DNA from: Gemmatimonadota bacterium
GTDB taxonomy: Bacteria > Gemmatimonadota > Gemmatimonadetes > Palauibacterales > KS3-K002
DNA length: 36,160 nucleotides
NCBI GenBank assembly: GCA_016209945.1
Contig: JACQVD010000046.1
Location: 1 to 36,160 of the forward strand
Reading direction: 5' to 3'
This document shows positions 23,511 through 36,160 of this stretch, in pieces. The notes beneath the pieces are model-generated. The model was not told the origin of the DNA and made no database searches. It worked only from the letters and a program-made list of their open reading frames with translations. The position numbers and the translations under genes are program-made. The first letter of the stretch is position 1. The number at the start of each line of letters is the position of its first letter.

Positions 23511-24293
23511 CTACCGGCCCTTGAACTGCGGCGTCCGTTTCTCCAGGAAGGCCTTCACACCCTCCTCCTTGTCCTCCGTCGAGAAGAGGAGTCCGAACAG
23601 GACCTTCTCGTATCTCAAGCCTTCTCCCAGCGGCATGCGGGCGGCGGCCTTCACGGCCTCCTTCGCCGCCTGAAGCGCGGCCGGACTCTTGGAGGCGATC
23701 CTTCGCGCCAGCTCCATGGTACGGGGACGGAGCTCCTCGTGCGGGACCACGTCGTCCACGAGGCCGATCTCCTTCCCCTGCGCCGCGTCGATCATCTCGC
23801 CCGTGTAGATGAGCCGGAGCGCCATCCCCTCGCCCACGAGGCGCGGAAGGCGCTGAGTCCCGCCGGCGCCGGGGATGATCCCCAGGCTGATTTCCGGCTG
23901 GCCGAGTTTCGCGCGGTCGCTCGCGATCCGGATGTCGCACGCCATGGCGAGCTCGCAGCCACCGCCGAGGCAGTACCCGTTGAGCATGGCGATCACGGGC
24001 TTCGGGAAGAGGTCGAAGACGGAGTACACATCGCCCGCCTGCATGGCACGGTACTGCTGCACGGCCGTGCGGCCCTCGAACTCCGCGATGTCGGAGCCCG
24101 CGATGAAGGCCTTGTCGCCCGCCCCCGTCAGGACGAGGACGCGCGCCTCGGCGTCGTCGCGCAGCGCCGCGAGGGCATCGAACATGGCACGCCGCACCTC
24201 CGCGTTCATCGCGTTCAATTTCTCGGGGCGGTTCACCGTCAGAGTAACGACGGGACCGTCACGCTCGATGAGAAGAACTTGGGATGACGCCAT
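23511..24293 (-). CDS. Enoyl-CoA hydratase
   Basis: [70 protein letters not shown]. Confidence 0.93.
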   Translation of the reverse strand: MASSQVLLIERDGPVVTLTVNRPEKLNAMNAEVRRAMFDALAALRDDAEARVLVLTGAGDKAFIAGSDIAEFEGRTAVQQYRAMQAGDVYSVFDLFPKPVIAMLNGYCLGGGCELAMACDIRIASDRAKLGQPEISLGIIPGAGGTQRLPRLVGEGMALRLIYTGEMIDAAQGKEIGLVDDVVPHEELRPRTMELARRIASKSPAALQAAKEAVKAAARMPLGEGLRYEKVLFGLLFSTEDKEEGVKAFLEKRTPQFKGR

Positions 24294-24353: not shown

Positions 24354-25367
24354 CTAAATCGGCGCAGGCTGGGGTTTCCCCGTCTCGTCCCAGCGATAGA
24401 AGCCCAGACCCGTCTTCTTCCCGAGCCGGCCCTGGCGCACGAGTCGCCGGAGGATTTCGGGCGGCCGGAAATGTTCAAGCCTCAGTTCCCGGTACAGGTA
24501 CTCGGCGATGGCGAGCCGGACGTCGAGGCCGATGAGGTCGGAGAGCTTGAGCGGCCCCATCGGGTGCCGGTATCCGAGCTCCATCGCCGTGTCGATGTCC
24601 TGCGGGGCGGCGACCCCCTCCTCGACCGTCCGCATGGCTTCGAGTCCCAGCAGGACCCCGAGGCGCGTCGAGGCGAAGCCGGGCGAGTCGTCCACGAGCA
24701 CCGGGGTCTTGCCGAGCCGGCGGACGAGATGGACGGCCGTCTCGATCGCGTACTGCGAGGTCTGCGGTCCGCGGACGACCTCCACGAGCGCCATGATGTG
24801 CGCGGGGTTGAAGAAGTGCAGGCCGAGCACGCGATCGGGGCGCTGCGCGGCCTGCGCCAGGGAGGCGATCCGGATCGACGAGGTGTTCGAGGCGAGGATC
24901 GCGCCCGGCCGGGTGAGCCGGTCGAGCTCGCGGAAGAGGTTGCGCTTGAGTTCGACGTCCTCGGGCACGCATTCGATGATGACGTCGGCGCCGCGTGCGG
25001 CGTCGGCGAGGTCGTTCACGGGCTCGATCCTCTGGAGCGCGGCCTGCGCGTCGCGCTTCGAGACTTTCCCGAGCTTCATGCCCTGTTCCAGGTTCGCCCG
25101 GATGCGCCGAAGCGCCGTTTGCAGCGCGGCGGCCAGGGCGTCGTGCAGGAGGACGCGGCAGCCGGCCATGGCGGCCACCTGGGCGACGCCGTGCCCCATC
25201 GTTCCCGCCCCGATGACGGCGAGCGTGACCGGCGGAGGAGGCGGCGTCTTGGCCGCCCTTGCCTTCGCTGCCGCTTTCGTCCGTTTCGGCTTCGAGGGCT
25301 GCGCGCGCTTCTTCGGCGCGGCCTTCGCCCTTCTCTTCGCGACCGTCGTGCTGGACTTACGTGCCAC
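24354..25367 (-). CDS. 3-hydroxybutyryl/3-hydroxyacyl-CoA dehydrogenase with basic N-terminal extension
   Basis: VIGAGTMGHGVAQVAAMAGCRVLLHD, LGLHFFNPAHIMALVEVV, DSPGFASTRLGVLLGLEAMRTVEEGVAAPQDIDTAMELGYRHPMGPLKLSDLIGLD. Confidence 0.93.
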   Translation of the reverse strand: MARKSSTTVAKRRAKAAPKKRAQPSKPKRTKAAAKARAAKTPPPPPVTLAVIGAGTMGHGVAQVAAMAGCRVLLHDALAAALQTALRRIRANLEQGMKLGKVSKRDAQAALQRIEPVNDLADAARGADVIIECVPEDVELKRNLFRELDRLTRPGAILASNTSSIRIASLAQAAQRPDRVLGLHFFNPAHIMALVEVVRGPQTSQYAIETAVHLVRRLGKTPVLVDDSPGFASTRLGVLLGLEAMRTVEEGVAAPQDIDTAMELGYRHPMGPLKLSDLIGLDVRLAIAEYLYRELRLEHFRPPEILRRLVRQGRLGKKTGLGFYRWDETGKPQPAPI

Positions 25368-26154
25368 GGAACTTCGGCTCCCGCTTTTCGAGGAATGCGC
25401 GCACGCCCTCGCGGGCGTCCTCGCTGGCGAAGCATTCGGTCTGGGCGCGCAGCTCGAACTCCAGCATCCCCTCCAGGGTCGCGCCGAGGCTCTTGTTCAG
25501 CGCCTCTTTGGCCAGGGCGAGGGCGCGGGGAGGCCGTGCGGCCAACTGCCGGGCGAGGCCGCGCGTCTCGGCCATCAGCCGGTCCTGCGGGACGACGCGA
25601 TCGAAGATGCCCAGCCGATGCGCCTCCTGCGCGTCGATCATGTCGCCCGAGAAGATGAGCTCGGCCGCCTTCGCGGGCCCCACGAGCCTCGGCAGGAAGT
25701 ACGTCCCGCCCCAGTCGGGGTGCAGTCCCACGCGTCCGAACGTCTCCCCGATGGAAGCGCGATCGCTCGCGATGCGGATGTCACACGCGAGCGCCAGGTT
25801 CGCCCCGCCACCCGCGGCCGGGCCGTTCACGGCCGCGATCACCGGCTTCGGCGCGCGCCGGATCGCGGTGATCGCGCGGCGCCCCGCTTGGAGCAGTTTC
25901 GCCGCCTCGTCGAGGTTCCGCTCCTCGATGAGCCGTCCGAGGTAGTCGAGATCGGCGCCGGCGCAAAAGCCACGCCCTGCACCGGTGATGATGATGACCC
26001 GCACGTCCGCATCCGCTGCGAGCCGCTCCAGGGCATCCGGCATGTCGTCGCGCATCGTCCCGTCGAACGCGTTGAGCCGCTCCGGCCGATTGAGCGTGAG
26101 GGTGCCGATCTGCTCGGAGACCTCGACGAGCACGGATTGCTGCTTGTAGCTCAC
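25357..26154 (-). CDS. Enoyl-CoA hydratase/isomerase (PaaG-like)
   Basis: GTG start in a 4-nt overlap with the thiolase; [80 protein letters not shown]. Confidence 0.9.
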
Positions 26155-27359
26155 GCCTCGCGCTCCACGATCGTCGCGATCCCCTGGCCGACGCCGATGC
26201 ACATGGTGCAGAGCCCGTAGCGTCCGCCGCGGCGCCGCATCTCGTGCACAAGCGTCGTCATGAGTCGCGCGCCCGTGCAGCCGATGGGGTGTCCCAGGGC
26301 GATGGCGCTGCCGTTCACGTTCGTCTTCTCCCAGGGGAGCCCCAACTCGCGCATGCAGGCGAGGGTCTGAGAGGCGAACGCCTCGTTCAGTTCGATGAGG
26401 TCGAAGTCGCCCAGGCGCAGCCCTGCGCGCTCCAGCACGCGGCGCGTGGCGGGGATCGGTCCGATTCCCATGCACGAAGGATCGACCCCGGCCACTGCCG
26501 ACGCGACGATGCGGGCCACAGGCCGGAGCCCGAGCCTCTCCGCCGCCGACCGACTGACAACGAGCAGGGCCGCCGCGCCGTCGTTCAGGCCCGAGGCGTT
26601 CCCCGCAGTCACGGTTCCTCCGCCGCGGAACGCCGGCGGTAGGGCGGCAAGACGCTCGAGGCTCGTGTCGGGCCGCGGGTGCTCATCCTGCTCTACACGC
26701 ACGGGCCGGCCCCGGGCGTCCACGGTCTCCACCGGCACGATCTCGTCCCGGAAGCACCCTTCGGTGGTCGCGCGCGCCGCGCGCCGCTGGCTCTCCAGCG
26801 CGAACTCGTCCTGCTCCTGTCGCGTGATCCCGTATTGCTCCGCGACGATCTCCGCTGTCTCCCCGAGGCTCACGGTCCACGGCGGTGGCATCTGCGGGTT
26901 CACGAACCGCCACCCGAGGACGGTGTCCGCGACCTCGGGAGTCCCACGGGCGAAGGGATGATCGGGTTTGAGCATGACGTACGGCGCCCGGCTCATGCTC
27001 TCCACGCCGCCCGCGATCACGACGTCCGCCTCGCCGGCCGCGATCGCGTGCGCCGCGCTCACGACCGCCTGGAGGCCTGATCCGCAGAGCCGGTTGACGG
27101 TGAACCCCGGCACCTCGACCGGCAGCCCGGCGCGGAGCGACGCCATGCGCGCCACGTTCCGGTTGTCCTCTCCTGCCTGGTTGGAGCACCCGGCGACCAC
27201 ATCGTCGATCTCCGTCACCGGGATGCCCGTCCGCTCCACCAGCGCCCTAATCGTGAGCGCGAGCAGATCGTCGGGCCGGACCCGGGCGAGCGCGCCGCCG
27301 TGACGGCCGACTGGGGTGCGCACGGCGTCGATGATGAGCGCGTCGCGCGGGCCCTTCAC
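26151..27359 (-). CDS. Acetyl-CoA C-acyltransferase (thiolase)
   Basis: [87 protein letters not shown]. Confidence 0.95.
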
Positions 27360-28813
27360 GAGAGATCCACCCAGACGCTCTTCACCTGGGTGTACTCGTT
27401 GAGCGCGTGCATCCCCAGGTCGCGCCCAAAGCCGCTCTGCTTGGTTCCGCCGAAGGGAGAGGCGGGGTCGTACCGGTTAAACGTATTGATCCACACGGTG
27501 CCGGCCTGGATCGCGCGCGCGACGCGGTGGGCTTTCTTCACGTCGCGGGTCCAGATGCCCGCGGCGAGCCCGTACATGGTGCGGTTCGCGATGGCGATCG
27601 CCTCTTCCTCGTCTTCGAAGGTGAGCGTGGCGAGCACGGGCCCGAAGATCTCCTCCTGGGCGATCGTCATGTCGGGTTGTACGCGATCAAAGACCGTCGC
27701 CGAGACGTAGTAGCCGCGCTCGCCCACGCGCGCGCCGCCGCACAGGAGCGTAGCGCCCTCGCGCTTCCCGGTATCGACGTAGCCGAGCACCCTCTGCATC
27801 TGCCGCTCGGAGACGAGCGCCCCGAGCCGGGTCTTCGGGTCGAGGGGGTCTCCCGGCACCGTCTTCTTCGCGCGCTCGACGAGCTTCTCCAGGAACACGT
27901 CGTGGATCGAGCGTTGCACGAGGAGGCGCGAGCCCGCCGAGCAGACCTCGCCTTTTCCGTAGAAGATGCCGACGGCGGCCCCGCGCACGGCCGCCTCCGG
28001 GTCGGCGTCGGCGAAGATGATGTTCGGGGACTTGCCGCCCAATTCGAGCTGCACGTTCTTGAGCGTCGCCGCCGCCTCGCGCATGATGATCCGGCCGGTC
28101 TCGGTGGAGCCCGTGAACGCGATCTTGTCCACACCGGGATGCCGCACGAGCGCGGCGCCCGTCACCTCACCATATCCAGGCACGACGTTCCAGACGCCGG
28201 GCGGGAAGCCGGCTTCGCGGGCCAGCGCCGCCAGGCGCAGCGTGGAGAGCGGCGTCTCCTCCGCAGGCTTCAGGATGACGGTGTTCCCACAGGCGAGCGC
28301 AGGGGCGATCTTCCACATGGCAATGACGATCGGGAAGTTCCACGGCACGATCGCCGCCACGACGCCGGTGGGCTCGCGCAACGTGTAGTTCAGGAACGGC
28401 CCCGCCACCGGGATCACCTCGCCCTGCCATTTGTCCGCCCAGCCCGCGTAGTACCGCAGGATCGAGATCGCCTCCGGGAGATCGATCTGCCGCGACTCGA
28501 AGATCGGCTTCCCGTTGTCCAGGGTCTCGATGCGCGCGATCTCGTCGATCTCGCGCTCGATGAGATCAGCCAGGCGATACAGCAGGCGCCCCCGGTCGCG
28601 CGCGCTCATCGTGCGCCAGTCGCCGCCCTCGAACGCCGCCCGCGCGGCCGCGACGGCGCGGTCCACGTCCGCGGCCTTCGCCTCCGCCACCTGCGCGAGC
28701 AGCTCGCCCGTCGCGGGGTTCACCGTCGGGAACGTGGACCCGTCGGCGGCGTCCACGAACTCGTTCGCGATGAAGAGCCGCGTCTCGAACCTCGCCGTCG
28801 TGGCGACCGGCAT
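27356..28813 (-). CDS. Aldehyde dehydrogenase family protein
   Basis: [87 protein letters not shown]. Confidence 0.95.
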
Positions 28814-28815
28814 CG

Positions 28816-29598
28816 TCAGCGCCCTTTGAAGACGGGCTTCCGCTTCTCCACGTACGCCGCGAGGCCCTCCTTCGCGTCCTCGGACTCGAAGAGCTGCTGC
28901 TGCATCTCGCGCTCGATGGCGAGCCCTTCCCCGAAGGGGACCTCGAGGCCGCTACAGACCGCGCGCTTGATGCGGCCCACGGCCTTCGCGGCCTTGTTCG
29001 GCGGGCAGAACTGCCGTGCGAATGCCAGCACGTCGTTCCAGAACGTCTCCGCAGGGAAGATGCGGTTCAGGAGTCCCAGCTCGAGCCCCTTCTCGAACTC
29101 GAAGGTCTCGCCGGTCGCCATGAGTTCGATCGCCTTCGACTTGCCCACGAGCCGTCCGAGCCGCTGGGTGCCGCCCGTCCCGGGAAGGACTCCGAGGTTC
29201 ACCTCCGGGAGACCGATCTTCCCGCCGCCCTGCCTGGCGAGTCGAAGGTCGCACGCGAGCGCGATCTCGAGGCCGCCGCCGACCGTGTGACCGTTCAACG
29301 CGGCGATCACCAACTTGGGCGTGTGCTCCAGCCGGTTCAACGTCTCGTTGGCGTGCAGGCAGAAGAAGTACTTGAAATAGGGATCGGCCTTCTGGAGCAT
29401 GCGGATGTCCGCGCCCGCCGAGAAGAACTTCTCGCCGGCCCCGCGGATCACGATCACGTACACCTCGGGATCGAAGCGCGCCTTCAGGACCGCGTCGTCC
29501 AGCTCGCGCATCATCTCGTGGGTGTACGTGTTTGCCGGGGGATCGTTCAGCTCCATGACCGCGACCCCTTCCTCCACTCGATACTCTACGAGCGCCAT
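28816..29598 (-). CDS. Enoyl-CoA hydratase
   Basis: MALVEYRVEEGVAVMELNDPPANTYTHEMM, GAGEKFFSAGADIRML, LNGHTVGGGLEIALACDLRLARQGGGKIGLPEVNLGVLPGTGGTQRLGRL. Confidence 0.92.
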   Translation of the reverse strand: MALVEYRVEEGVAVMELNDPPANTYTHEMMRELDDAVLKARFDPEVYVIVIRGAGEKFFSAGADIRMLQKADPYFKYFFCLHANETLNRLEHTPKLVIAALNGHTVGGGLEIALACDLRLARQGGGKIGLPEVNLGVLPGTGGTQRLGRLVGKSKAIELMATGETFEFEKGLELGLLNRIFPAETFWNDVLAFARQFCPPNKAAKAVGRIKRAVCSGLEVPFGEGLAIEREMQQQLFESEDAKEGLAAYVEKRKPVFKGR

Positions 29599-30257
29599 GG
29601 CGCATCTCCTGGGCCCAGGGGTTCTGCACAGCGATCCAGATGCCGGCCGGCGTCGCCGCTCCGGAGAAACCCGCCGAGGAAGAGCCGGTAGAGCTGCTCG
29701 GCGAGGCGCTCCACGCTGACGTCCTGCTCCGGCCGGTACCAGGTGTAGGTCCAGTTCATCATCCCGAAGAGCGCGAACGCCGCCACGCGCAGGACCACGG
29801 CATCGCCGGAACCGCAAAAGCGGCGCACGTCCCGGAGGATCCCGAGACAGGTCTCCATGTACTCATGGCGGAGCGCGCGGATGTGTTCCCTGTGCTCACC
29901 CGTCAGCGAGTCGTATTCGTGCACCAGAACCTTCATCGCCGGCCGGCGCTGCGCGAAGACGCGCAGGTGGCTGTGCACGAAGATCCGCAGCCGCTCGCGC
30001 GGATCGTGCACGTCGTCGAGCCGGCGGCGCAGGTCGTCGAGCACCGTGCGCAGGAGCCGCTCCTGGATCCGGAAGAGAAGCTCCTCCTTGCTCCGGAAGT
30101 AGTAGTAGAGGCCCGCCAGGCTCACGCCGGACGCTCTCGCGATGTCGCGGATCGAGGTGTTGTGGTAGCCTTTGTCTGCGAAGATCTCGGCCGAGAGCTC
30201 GAGGAGGCGCTCGAGCTTCTCCTGGTGATTCGTTGAGACAGGCGCGGCTTGCCCCAT
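29586..30257 (-). CDS. TetR/AcrR family transcriptional regulator
   Basis: KLERLLELSAEIFADKGYHNTSIRDIARASGVSLAGLYYYFRSKEELLFRIQER. True start 30257; the 653-aa track ORF is extended upstream. Confidence 0.93.
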   Translation of the reverse strand: MGQAAPVSTNHQEKLERLLELSAEIFADKGYHNTSIRDIARASGVSLAGLYYYFRSKEELLFRIQERLLRTVLDDLRRRLDDVHDPRERLRIFVHSHLRVFAQRRPAMKVLVHEYDSLTGEHREHIRALRHEYMETCLGILRDVRRFCGSGDAVVLRVAAFALFGMMNWTYTWYRPEQDVSVERLAEQLYRLFLGGFLRSGDAGRHLDRCAEPLGPGDAPWRS

Positions 30258-30279
30258 GCCGTGTCTCCGGGCGGGGGTT

Positions 30280-30293
30280 CGAACGTCCGTTCG
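30280..30293. promoter_or_regulatory. Candidate TetR operator CGAACG-TC-CGTTCG
   Basis: Perfect 6-bp arms with a 2-bp centre, between divergent tetR (30257, -) and nfeD (30378, +). Confidence 0.65.
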
Positions 30294-30377
30294 GTGCGCA
30301 ACGTATCGGGCCCGCAGGGGCGCCGCAAGCAGGATTCTCGTTTGACGGAGCCGACGGCCCCCGGTAGGTTGCCATCG

Positions 30378-31820
30378 ATGAGGCGCTCCCCTCGACCCGC
30401 CCCTCGCCGGGCGATCCGCGCCCTGGCGGCCACGGCCGTGCTCCTGCTCGCGGGGACGGCCGGCAGCCTTGCGGCAGCCCCGGCCTCCAGCGCCCCCGGC
30501 CTCGCCGGCCTCGCCGGCCTCCCCGGCCTCCCCGGCCCCCCCGGCGCCGGGGATGAGCGGAACAAGATTGTCTACCGGATTCCCATCCACGGCACGATCG
30601 ACATGGGGCTCGCTCCCTACGTGCGGCGGGCCCTGGGAAACGCGAGGAAGGCCGGCGCCGCGTTCGTCGTCCTCGACATCAACACGCCGGGCGGCCGGGT
30701 GGACGCCGCTTGGGAGATCGTGGACGCGGTCCAGGAATCCCCCGTCGCCGTCTACGCGTACGTGGACCGCGCGATCTCCGCGGGCGCCATGATCGCCCTC
30801 GCCGCGACGGGGATCTACACGCGCCCCGGGGCGAGCATCGGCGCCGCGACGCCCGTGAGTCTCACGGGCGAGAAGGCGCCGGAGAAGGTCGTGAGCGTCA
30901 TGCGCTCGGAGTTCCGCGCGCTCGCCGAGGCGCGGGGCCTCGATCCCAGGATTGCCGAGGCGATGGTGGACGAGGAGGTGGAGCTCCCCGGCGTGAAGGA
31001 GAAGGGAAAGCTCCTGACGCTCACGTCGGAGGAGGCGCTGCGCCTCGGGTACTCGAAAGGAGAGTTCGAGGACTTCGAATCGCTCCTCGCGGCACTCGAC
31101 GCCGCCGGCGCGGAGGTGATCGTGCCCGGCGAGAACTGGGCGGAGAGGGTCGTGCGCTTTCTCACGAGCCCGCTCGTGGCGCCGATCCTGTTGAGCCTGG
31201 GGATGCTCGGCCTCCTGATCGAGCTCCAGACCCCGTCGTTCGGGGTCGCCGGGATCACGGGCTTGATCCTGCTGGCCCTCTTCTTCGGCGCGCACCTCAT
31301 CGTCGGGCTCGCCGGCCTGGAAGAGCTTCTGCTCCTCCTCGCGGGCCTCGTTCTCCTCGGCCTGGAGGTCTTCGTGATTCCCGGCTTCGGGCTCGCGGGG
31401 ATCCTCGGGATCGTCGCGATTGCGGCCGCCATCTTCCTGGCACTCCTGGGGCGGTTCCCGAGTGTGAATGACATCACCCGGGCGGTCGGGACGTTGGGCG
31501 TGACGCTCCTGATCTTCATGGCGACGGCGTACTACTTCGTCCGCCACCTGCCGTGGAGCAAGCGTCTGGGCGGGATTTTCCTCCGGGAGGCGGAGGCGCG
31601 GGCGGTGGGCTACATCTCCGCGGAGCCGCGCCAGGACCTCGTGGGCAAGATCGGCGTCGCGGTCACGGACCTCCGGCCCGCGGGGATCGGGCTGTTCGAC
31701 GGCGAGCGGGTTGACGTGGTCAGCGAAGGCGACTACGTGAAAGCGGGCGCCAGGATCAAGGTGCTACGCTCCGAAGGCTACCGGCACATCGTGCGGCTGG
31801 TGGAGGGAAAGAGACTATGA
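30378..31820 (+). CDS. NfeD family membrane-bound ClpP-class serine protease
   Basis: [81 protein letters not shown]-terminal TM region and OB-like domain. Confidence 0.92.
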
Positions 31821-33934: not shown

Positions 33935-34041
33935 ATGCGCATCCCCAGGTCGCTCCTTCTAGCCCTCCCGCTGGTTCTCGTGCTCCCGTCGGTCGCAAGC
34001 CGGCTGCGCTTCCGCCATCGCGCTCTCGCGCAAGGAGGAGA

Positions 34042-34045
<4 letters not shown>
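33935..34045 (+). CDS. Short signal-peptide-like leader ORF (36 aa) overlapping the malate synthase start
   Basis: AGGAGGT SD at 33924-33930; [39 protein letters not shown] overlaps the malate synthase ATG (ATGA). Confidence 0.45.
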
Positions 34046-35649
<1,604 letters not shown>

Positions 35650-35671
35650 GAGGACTAGCCAAGGAGCCTCT

Positions 35672-36160
35672 ATGATCAAGCAAAACGAAGTCGTGGAGCT
35701 CGTGCAGTCCTGGTCCACGGATGCGCGCTGGGAAGGGATCCACAGGCCCTACTCCGCCGGGGACGTCCTCAAGCTCCGCGGCTCGATCCGCCTCGAGCAT
35801 ACCCTCGCTCGCATGGGCGCGGAGCGGCTCTGGAAGCTGCTCCACGAGGAGCCTCTGGTCCGCGCGCTCGGCGCCCTCACGGGGAACCAGGCCGTCCAGC
35901 AGGTCGCGGCGGGGCTCAAGGCCATCTACGTGAGCGGCTGGCAGGTGGCGGCCGACATGAACGACGCGGGCCAGATGTACCCGGATCAGAGCCTCTACCC
36001 GGTGGACTCGGCACCGAACCTCGTCCGCCGGATCAACAACGCGCTCCTGCGCGCGGACCAGATCCAGCACATGGAGGGGAAGAACGAGGTCTACTGGTTC
36101 GCGCCGATCGTCGCCGACGCCGAGGCCGGCTTCGGCGGGCCCCTCAACACGTTCGAGCTC
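35672..36160 (+). CDS. aceA: Isocitrate lyase (partial, runs off the window)
   Basis: [57 protein letters not shown]...[40 protein letters not shown]. Confidence 0.95.

Follow-up and report, generated by a model that had tools for sequence, protein, structure and literature searches.

The window, i.e. the whole analysed stretch of 36,160 nt from a Gemmatimonadota draft genome, contains a tetR gene (29586-30257, minus strand) that leads an operon of six enzyme genes on the same strand. Its divergently oriented neighbour is nfeD (30378-31820, plus strand), and the two genes are separated by 120 bp (30258-30377). This space contains a 14-bp dyad, CGAACG-TC-CGTTCG (CGAACGTCCGTTCG; 30280-30293, no strand assigned; CGAACGGACGTTCGAA in the tetR sense), whose 6+6 arms are perfectly complementary around a non-symmetric central TC. 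A gap of 22 bp (30258-30279) separates it from the tetR start codon (30257). The coordinates bear out the dyad sequence, the gap and the length of the divergent region given in a previous sequence-only reading of this DNA, and the genome scan proposed there showed this dyad to be the one exact copy of the motif CNAACGNNCGTTNG across the entire 1.73-Mb draft genome, the 36-kb window included. With one mismatch allowed, the window contains 1 site against 1.39 expected from window shuffles; the motif frequency is therefore not significant by itself, as ten fixed bases occur about once by chance in a genome of this size. The dyad stands out from chance because it is placed just past a promoter and is conserved before orthologous genes. 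Nothing relevant came from searching the literature for the motif. The second-best site of the draft genome (C137:753-768) is located just after a Lon-like gene, where a promoter role is not clear.

Read on the tetR strand, a −35-like hexamer TTGCGG (30323-30328, minus strand) is followed, after a 17-bp spacer, by a −10-like hexamer TACGTT (30300-30305, minus strand), then by 6 bp and the dyad. Transcription of the tetR-led operon would thus be expected to start within the dyad. The promoter-like sequence of nfeD, TTGACG-N17-TAGGTT (30342-30370, plus strand), starts 48 bp beyond the dyad and does not overlap it. Both promoters are consensus matches, with starts that are predicted rather than mapped. 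Since the nfeD promoter lies outside the dyad, a repressor bound there should block tetR and the operon, not nfeD. The sequence-only reading had proposed autorepression with control of the downstream operon, for which this placement argues, and a possible effect on nfeD-floA. Direct control of nfeD-floA was rejected on the promoter geometry, and nfeD was not counted in the regulon. The nfeD gene adjoins tetR in all seven loci of the family, as well as in some other relatives. Beyond floA (33960-36160), visual inspection of the translation picked out reading frames resembling malate synthase and isocitrate lyase, which would suit growth on acetyl-CoA.

The tetR product (223 aa; TetR_N and TetR_C_24 domains) was assigned to the TetR family by profile matches (PF00440, 62 bits; PF17932, 97 bits) and by its predicted structure (pLDDT 86), which matches TetR folds. 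Another trait of this family, a palindrome near its own gene, is present here in the form of the candidate operator. The scores against the models of FadR of the Bacillus type (NF053878, 72.8 bits) and of the SACE_7040 family (NF050111, 91.3 bits) are under the respective cut-offs of 200 and 250. By sequence and fold, the closest solved proteins are (i) PfmR of Thermus thermophilus HB8 (TTHB023, PDB 3vpr; 35.7% identity), the best PDB match by single sequence and fold, and (ii) AibR of Myxococcus xanthus (PDB 5k7f/5k7h/5k7z; 26-28% identity), the best profile match in PDB, followed, among those with a known role, by FadR and KstR2. The PDB comparison includes solved complexes of AibR with isovaleryl-CoA and of FadR with stearoyl-CoA, both CoA thioesters. 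The effector of the window regulator is likely to belong to the acyl-CoA class.

The tetR gene is followed, on the minus strand, by (i) ech1 (28816-29601), encoding a crotonase-fold enoyl-CoA hydratase, a candidate oxepin-CoA hydrolase, (ii) aldh (27356-28813), encoding an NAD(P) aldehyde dehydrogenase, a candidate for the semialdehyde step performed elsewhere by PaaZ, (iii) thl (26151-27359), encoding a 3-oxoadipyl-CoA thiolase-like protein of the PcaF/PaaJ type (576 bits, cut-off 605), (iv) ech2 (25357-26157), encoding a PaaG-like enoyl-CoA hydratase/isomerase (TIGR02280, 240 bits, cut-off 345), (v) hbdh (24354-25367), encoding a 3-hydroxyacyl-CoA dehydrogenase, PaaH-like in the profile search, and (vi) ech3 (23511-24293), encoding a PaaF-like enoyl-CoA hydratase (PaaF model, 268 bits, cut-off 371). 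The best named models thus include the PaaF, PaaG, PaaH and PcaF/PaaJ types, none of them at its equivalog cut-off. Together, the six enzymes could account for oxepin-CoA hydrolysis, for the oxidation of the aldehyde and for the lower phenylacetate/aryl-CoA pathway, with the steps assigned by analogy to the known pathway. Neither a PaaA/BoxB-family gene nor PaaK was found in the draft genome of the window; as this assembly is 84% complete, both may simply be missing from it.

Of 394 genomes compared within the class, 94 encode an orthologue of the regulator (E <= 1e-35); named relatives in a second collection identify the phylum as Gemmatimonadota. The motif is conserved before orthologous tetR genes, where its absence would, according to the sequence-only reading, have spoken against the proposal: the best upstream match to CGAACGNNCGTTCG has at least 11 of the 12 arm bases in 59 of 93 orthologues (12/12 in 31 and 11/12 in 28), as against a mean best match of 7.95/12 in first-order shuffles of the upstream regions, a control that ignores the shared descent of the genomes. 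A −10-like hexamer occurs 0-8 bp before 55 of the 59 conserved sites (23% of shuffles), accompanied by a −35-like hexamer in 44. In family f8 (Longimicrobiaceae included), many tetR promoters carry a copy with one decayed arm, whereas the paaA promoters of the same genomes mostly carry a perfect copy, which suggests that autoregulation may be weaker there than target control. Three sister genomes (G001, G003 and G006) have kept tetR and the operator without ech1-aldh-thl and without paaA, and some family members retain only ech3 or ech2-hbdh-ech3. The operator also turns up in further MAGs: upstream of tetR-ech1-ech2-boxB in those of Acidobacteria, upstream of tetR-boxB in one of Bacteroidetes and in unclassified ones, and upstream of a tetR of 36% identity in one of WOR-3. 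Some homologues of 41-46% identity, from Planctomycetota, Binatia and Deltaproteobacteria MAGs, have no good copy of it.

Genes of the PaaA-like ring-epoxidase type were identified in 146 of the 394 genomes. Where the regulator is present, their promoters contain the operator (at least 11/12) in 29 of 38 genomes; where it is absent, this holds for 1 of 36 genomes sampled (Fisher P 1.3e-11, a value that ignores shared descent and overstates the independence of kindred genomes, though this presence and absence was seen across several families). In five of the nine exceptions tetR is the gene immediately upstream of paaA and is itself preceded by the operator; the others are G205 (10/12), G296, and G004 and G005, whose paaA has no operator. 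Approximately 21 of the 29 sites, as counted by eye, extend as CGAACGNNCGTTCGAACG. Two full operators overlapping by two bases precede paaA in G049, G152 and G162 (L040:8878-8907; also L108 and L109), an arrangement consistent with the binding of two dimers. Plain co-occurrence of tetR and paaA shows no enrichment (38/94 versus 108/300 genomes), because many relatives hold paaA without the regulator; the operator is the informative comparison.

In other lineages, a second type of oxygenase is encoded within the tetR-led operon itself. In the 61 relatives' loci that extend 4.5 kb or more downstream of tetR, ech1 is present in 47, aldh in 47, thl in 48, paaA-paaC in 3, and a gene for a BoxB-like diiron oxygenase in 30 (L026:14448-15581 and 29 other loci); no paaA was found in the genomes with a locus of this BoxB type. 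The BoxB-like protein scores 226 bits (BoxB cut-off 499), the PaaA-like proteins approximately 130 bits (cut-off 280) and the PaaC-like proteins 107-123 bits (cut-off 133). Large tetratricopeptide-like proteins were seen by eye within the operon of G004 (L021:1266-5862) and beside that of G002 (L019:165-2462).

In 40 genomes, perfect CGAACGNNCGTTCG sites exceed those of the reversed pattern (84 versus 12, summed by hand). A wider regulon was rejected, as the other perfect sites inspected often lie in coding DNA and their promoter geometry is inconsistent. A few are located near etfB, a gene for a molybdenum-hydroxylase subunit or a ferredoxin gene. These include dyads near genes that, judged by eye from the first residues of the protein, resemble those for electron transfer flavoprotein beta (L323 and L325; G242 and G280), and dyads near a ferredoxin-like gene, a possible electron donor, with unclear promoter geometry (L316, L317 and L318; G049, G211 and G197).

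The dyad at 30280-30293 is very probably the operator of the adjacent TetR repressor. From the computed dyad, its position relative to the promoter, its conservation, its co-occurrence with the regulator and the operon content, we infer the following on binding, repression, the identity of the effector and the exact reaction that each enzyme performs. A TetR dimer on the dyad would cover the transcription start and block the tetR-ech1-aldh-thl-ech2-hbdh-ech3 operon, which would give both autorepression and control over the enzyme genes. Throughout the phylum, this regulator-operator pair would also control a ring-epoxidising oxygenase feeding these enzymes: in some lineages a PaaABC-type oxygenase, usually encoded elsewhere in the genome behind its own, often tandem, operator copy, and in others a BoxB-like oxygenase from within the tetR-led operon. 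The repressor would be released by an aryl-CoA thioester, most plausibly phenylacetyl-CoA, benzoyl-CoA, a close relative or a pathway intermediate. The regulon content, i.e. enzymes of aryl-CoA pathway types and ring epoxidases, fits the aromatic acyl-CoA inducer that had been suggested from the window. The pair is most likely an on/off switch for the use of an aromatic compound as food, and we regard this reading as a whole, from predicted operator to aryl-CoA release, as well supported by genome comparison and probable.

The best-surviving alternative is that the regulator is a true PaaR, which responds to phenylacetyl-CoA and controls the standard phenylacetate pathway. PaaR of T. thermophilus HB8 (TTHA0973; Sakamoto 2011) is a TetR repressor with the operator CNAACG-N2-CGTTNG and phenylacetyl-CoA as inducer, as cited in PMC6651687 and PMC9493321; the motif had been given correctly in the sequence-only reading, as PMC6651687 confirms. 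The window dyad matches this published operator motif, CNAACGNNCGTTNG, exactly, a likeness at the level of the operator. It disagrees, in the spacing of the half-sites, with the consensus AACnAACGTTnGTT of a later selection study of Thermus PaaR. In several relatives the regulator leads or adjoins an operon with a paaA-type epoxidase, in some genomes in the order tetR-paaA-paaC, and the lower-pathway enzymes are PaaG/F/H/J-like. The relatives differ from Thermus, however, in having no convincing PaaK and, in many cases, a BoxB-like epoxidase, present in about half of the loci compared. Among genomes with a full or nearly full operon, PaaK (TIGR02155) had no match in G004, G043 and G045 and weak matches, far under the cut-off, in G002, G005 and G049. 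The one genome with a PaaK-like protein (560 bits, cut-off 646) is G007, whose 65%-complete assembly lacks a regulator orthologue. The PaaA-like scores are likewise far under their cut-off. Plasmids of T. thermophilus (L043:7998-14693 and L044:7998-14698) contain a second paaA-paaC cluster, which also includes ech and aldh and has a different TetR. We rejected these plasmid clusters as a guide to the effector, since the enzymes are similar but the TetR is unrelated and the sites are of the TGACCGGTTAG type. This identity as a true PaaR is plausible but falls short of an even chance, and phenylacetyl-CoA in particular is possible as effector at about the same level. Two other TetR regulators of aromatic catabolism are comparable in logic. 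PaaR of Burkholderia cenocepacia controls paa genes and is released by phenylacetyl-CoA (PMC9493321), but its operator ACCGACCGGTCGGTT is unlike the window dyad. MbdR of Azoarcus sp. CIB is a repressor with an aryl-CoA inducer and an operator over the transcription start (PMC4424350); it differs in its operator, ATACN10GTAT, and in serving an anaerobic pathway.

The effector might also be a non-aromatic acyl-CoA (fatty, branched-chain or dicarboxylic) from general beta-oxidation, with the link to epoxidases being secondary. The crotonase, thiolase and dehydrogenase types of the enzymes would suit this, as would the family members reduced to ech3 or ech2-hbdh-ech3 and the nearest folds (PfmR, AibR, FadR and KstR2). 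PfmR regulates genes of acyl-CoA metabolism; its operator is TACCGACCGNTNGGTN, observed at its own site in L042, and the window dyad, CGAACG-N2-CGTTCG, does not conform to it. AibR resembles the window regulator, as predicted here, in being a TetR protein with an acyl-CoA effector, encoded inside the operon that it controls (PMC9131029), but it is the isovaleryl-CoA-bound form that downregulates, and the pathway is another one. As this operator recurs before ring-epoxidase genes, or the operon itself includes them, in many genomes, we consider a non-aromatic effector unlikely.

A TetR paralogue of G001 (G001:C1:2559075-2559623, locus L016; 28.6% identity to the regulator) is associated with a separate dyad, TTTGAACG-AC-CGTTCAAA, in which the core is identical and the flanks differ. 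The AACG-N2-CGTT core thus occurs with several TetR groups, and the core by itself does not reveal the effector. That the operator serves such another regulator of identical core instead of the adjacent one is nevertheless very improbable, since the site tracks the adjacent tetR from genome to genome and paaA promoters hardly ever carry it where the regulator is lacking. A chance palindrome with no function, to be expected about once in a genome of this size, is already contradicted by positional conservation across 93 orthologues and other phyla and can be dismissed.

A further reading, less likely than not, goes beyond the switch itself: a single pair, retained widely in Gemmatimonadota as well as in Acidobacteria and further phyla, would govern ring epoxidases that can replace each other (PaaABC-type or divergent BoxB-like) on a shared lower pathway without recognisable PaaK. 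We suggest tentatively that this could mark an undescribed aerobic aryl-CoA route, with another starting compound or another way of making the CoA ester. The missing PaaK raises the question of how this ester is made, and CGAACGNNCGTTCG just past a promoter may serve as a sequence tag for finding the rest of the pathway. For a phylum of which few members are in culture, the pair offers an easily testable candidate repressor and operator (CGAACGGACGTTCG) of aromatic degradation. That one regulator is paired with either of two dissimilar epoxidases points to a modular assembly of aryl-CoA pathways.
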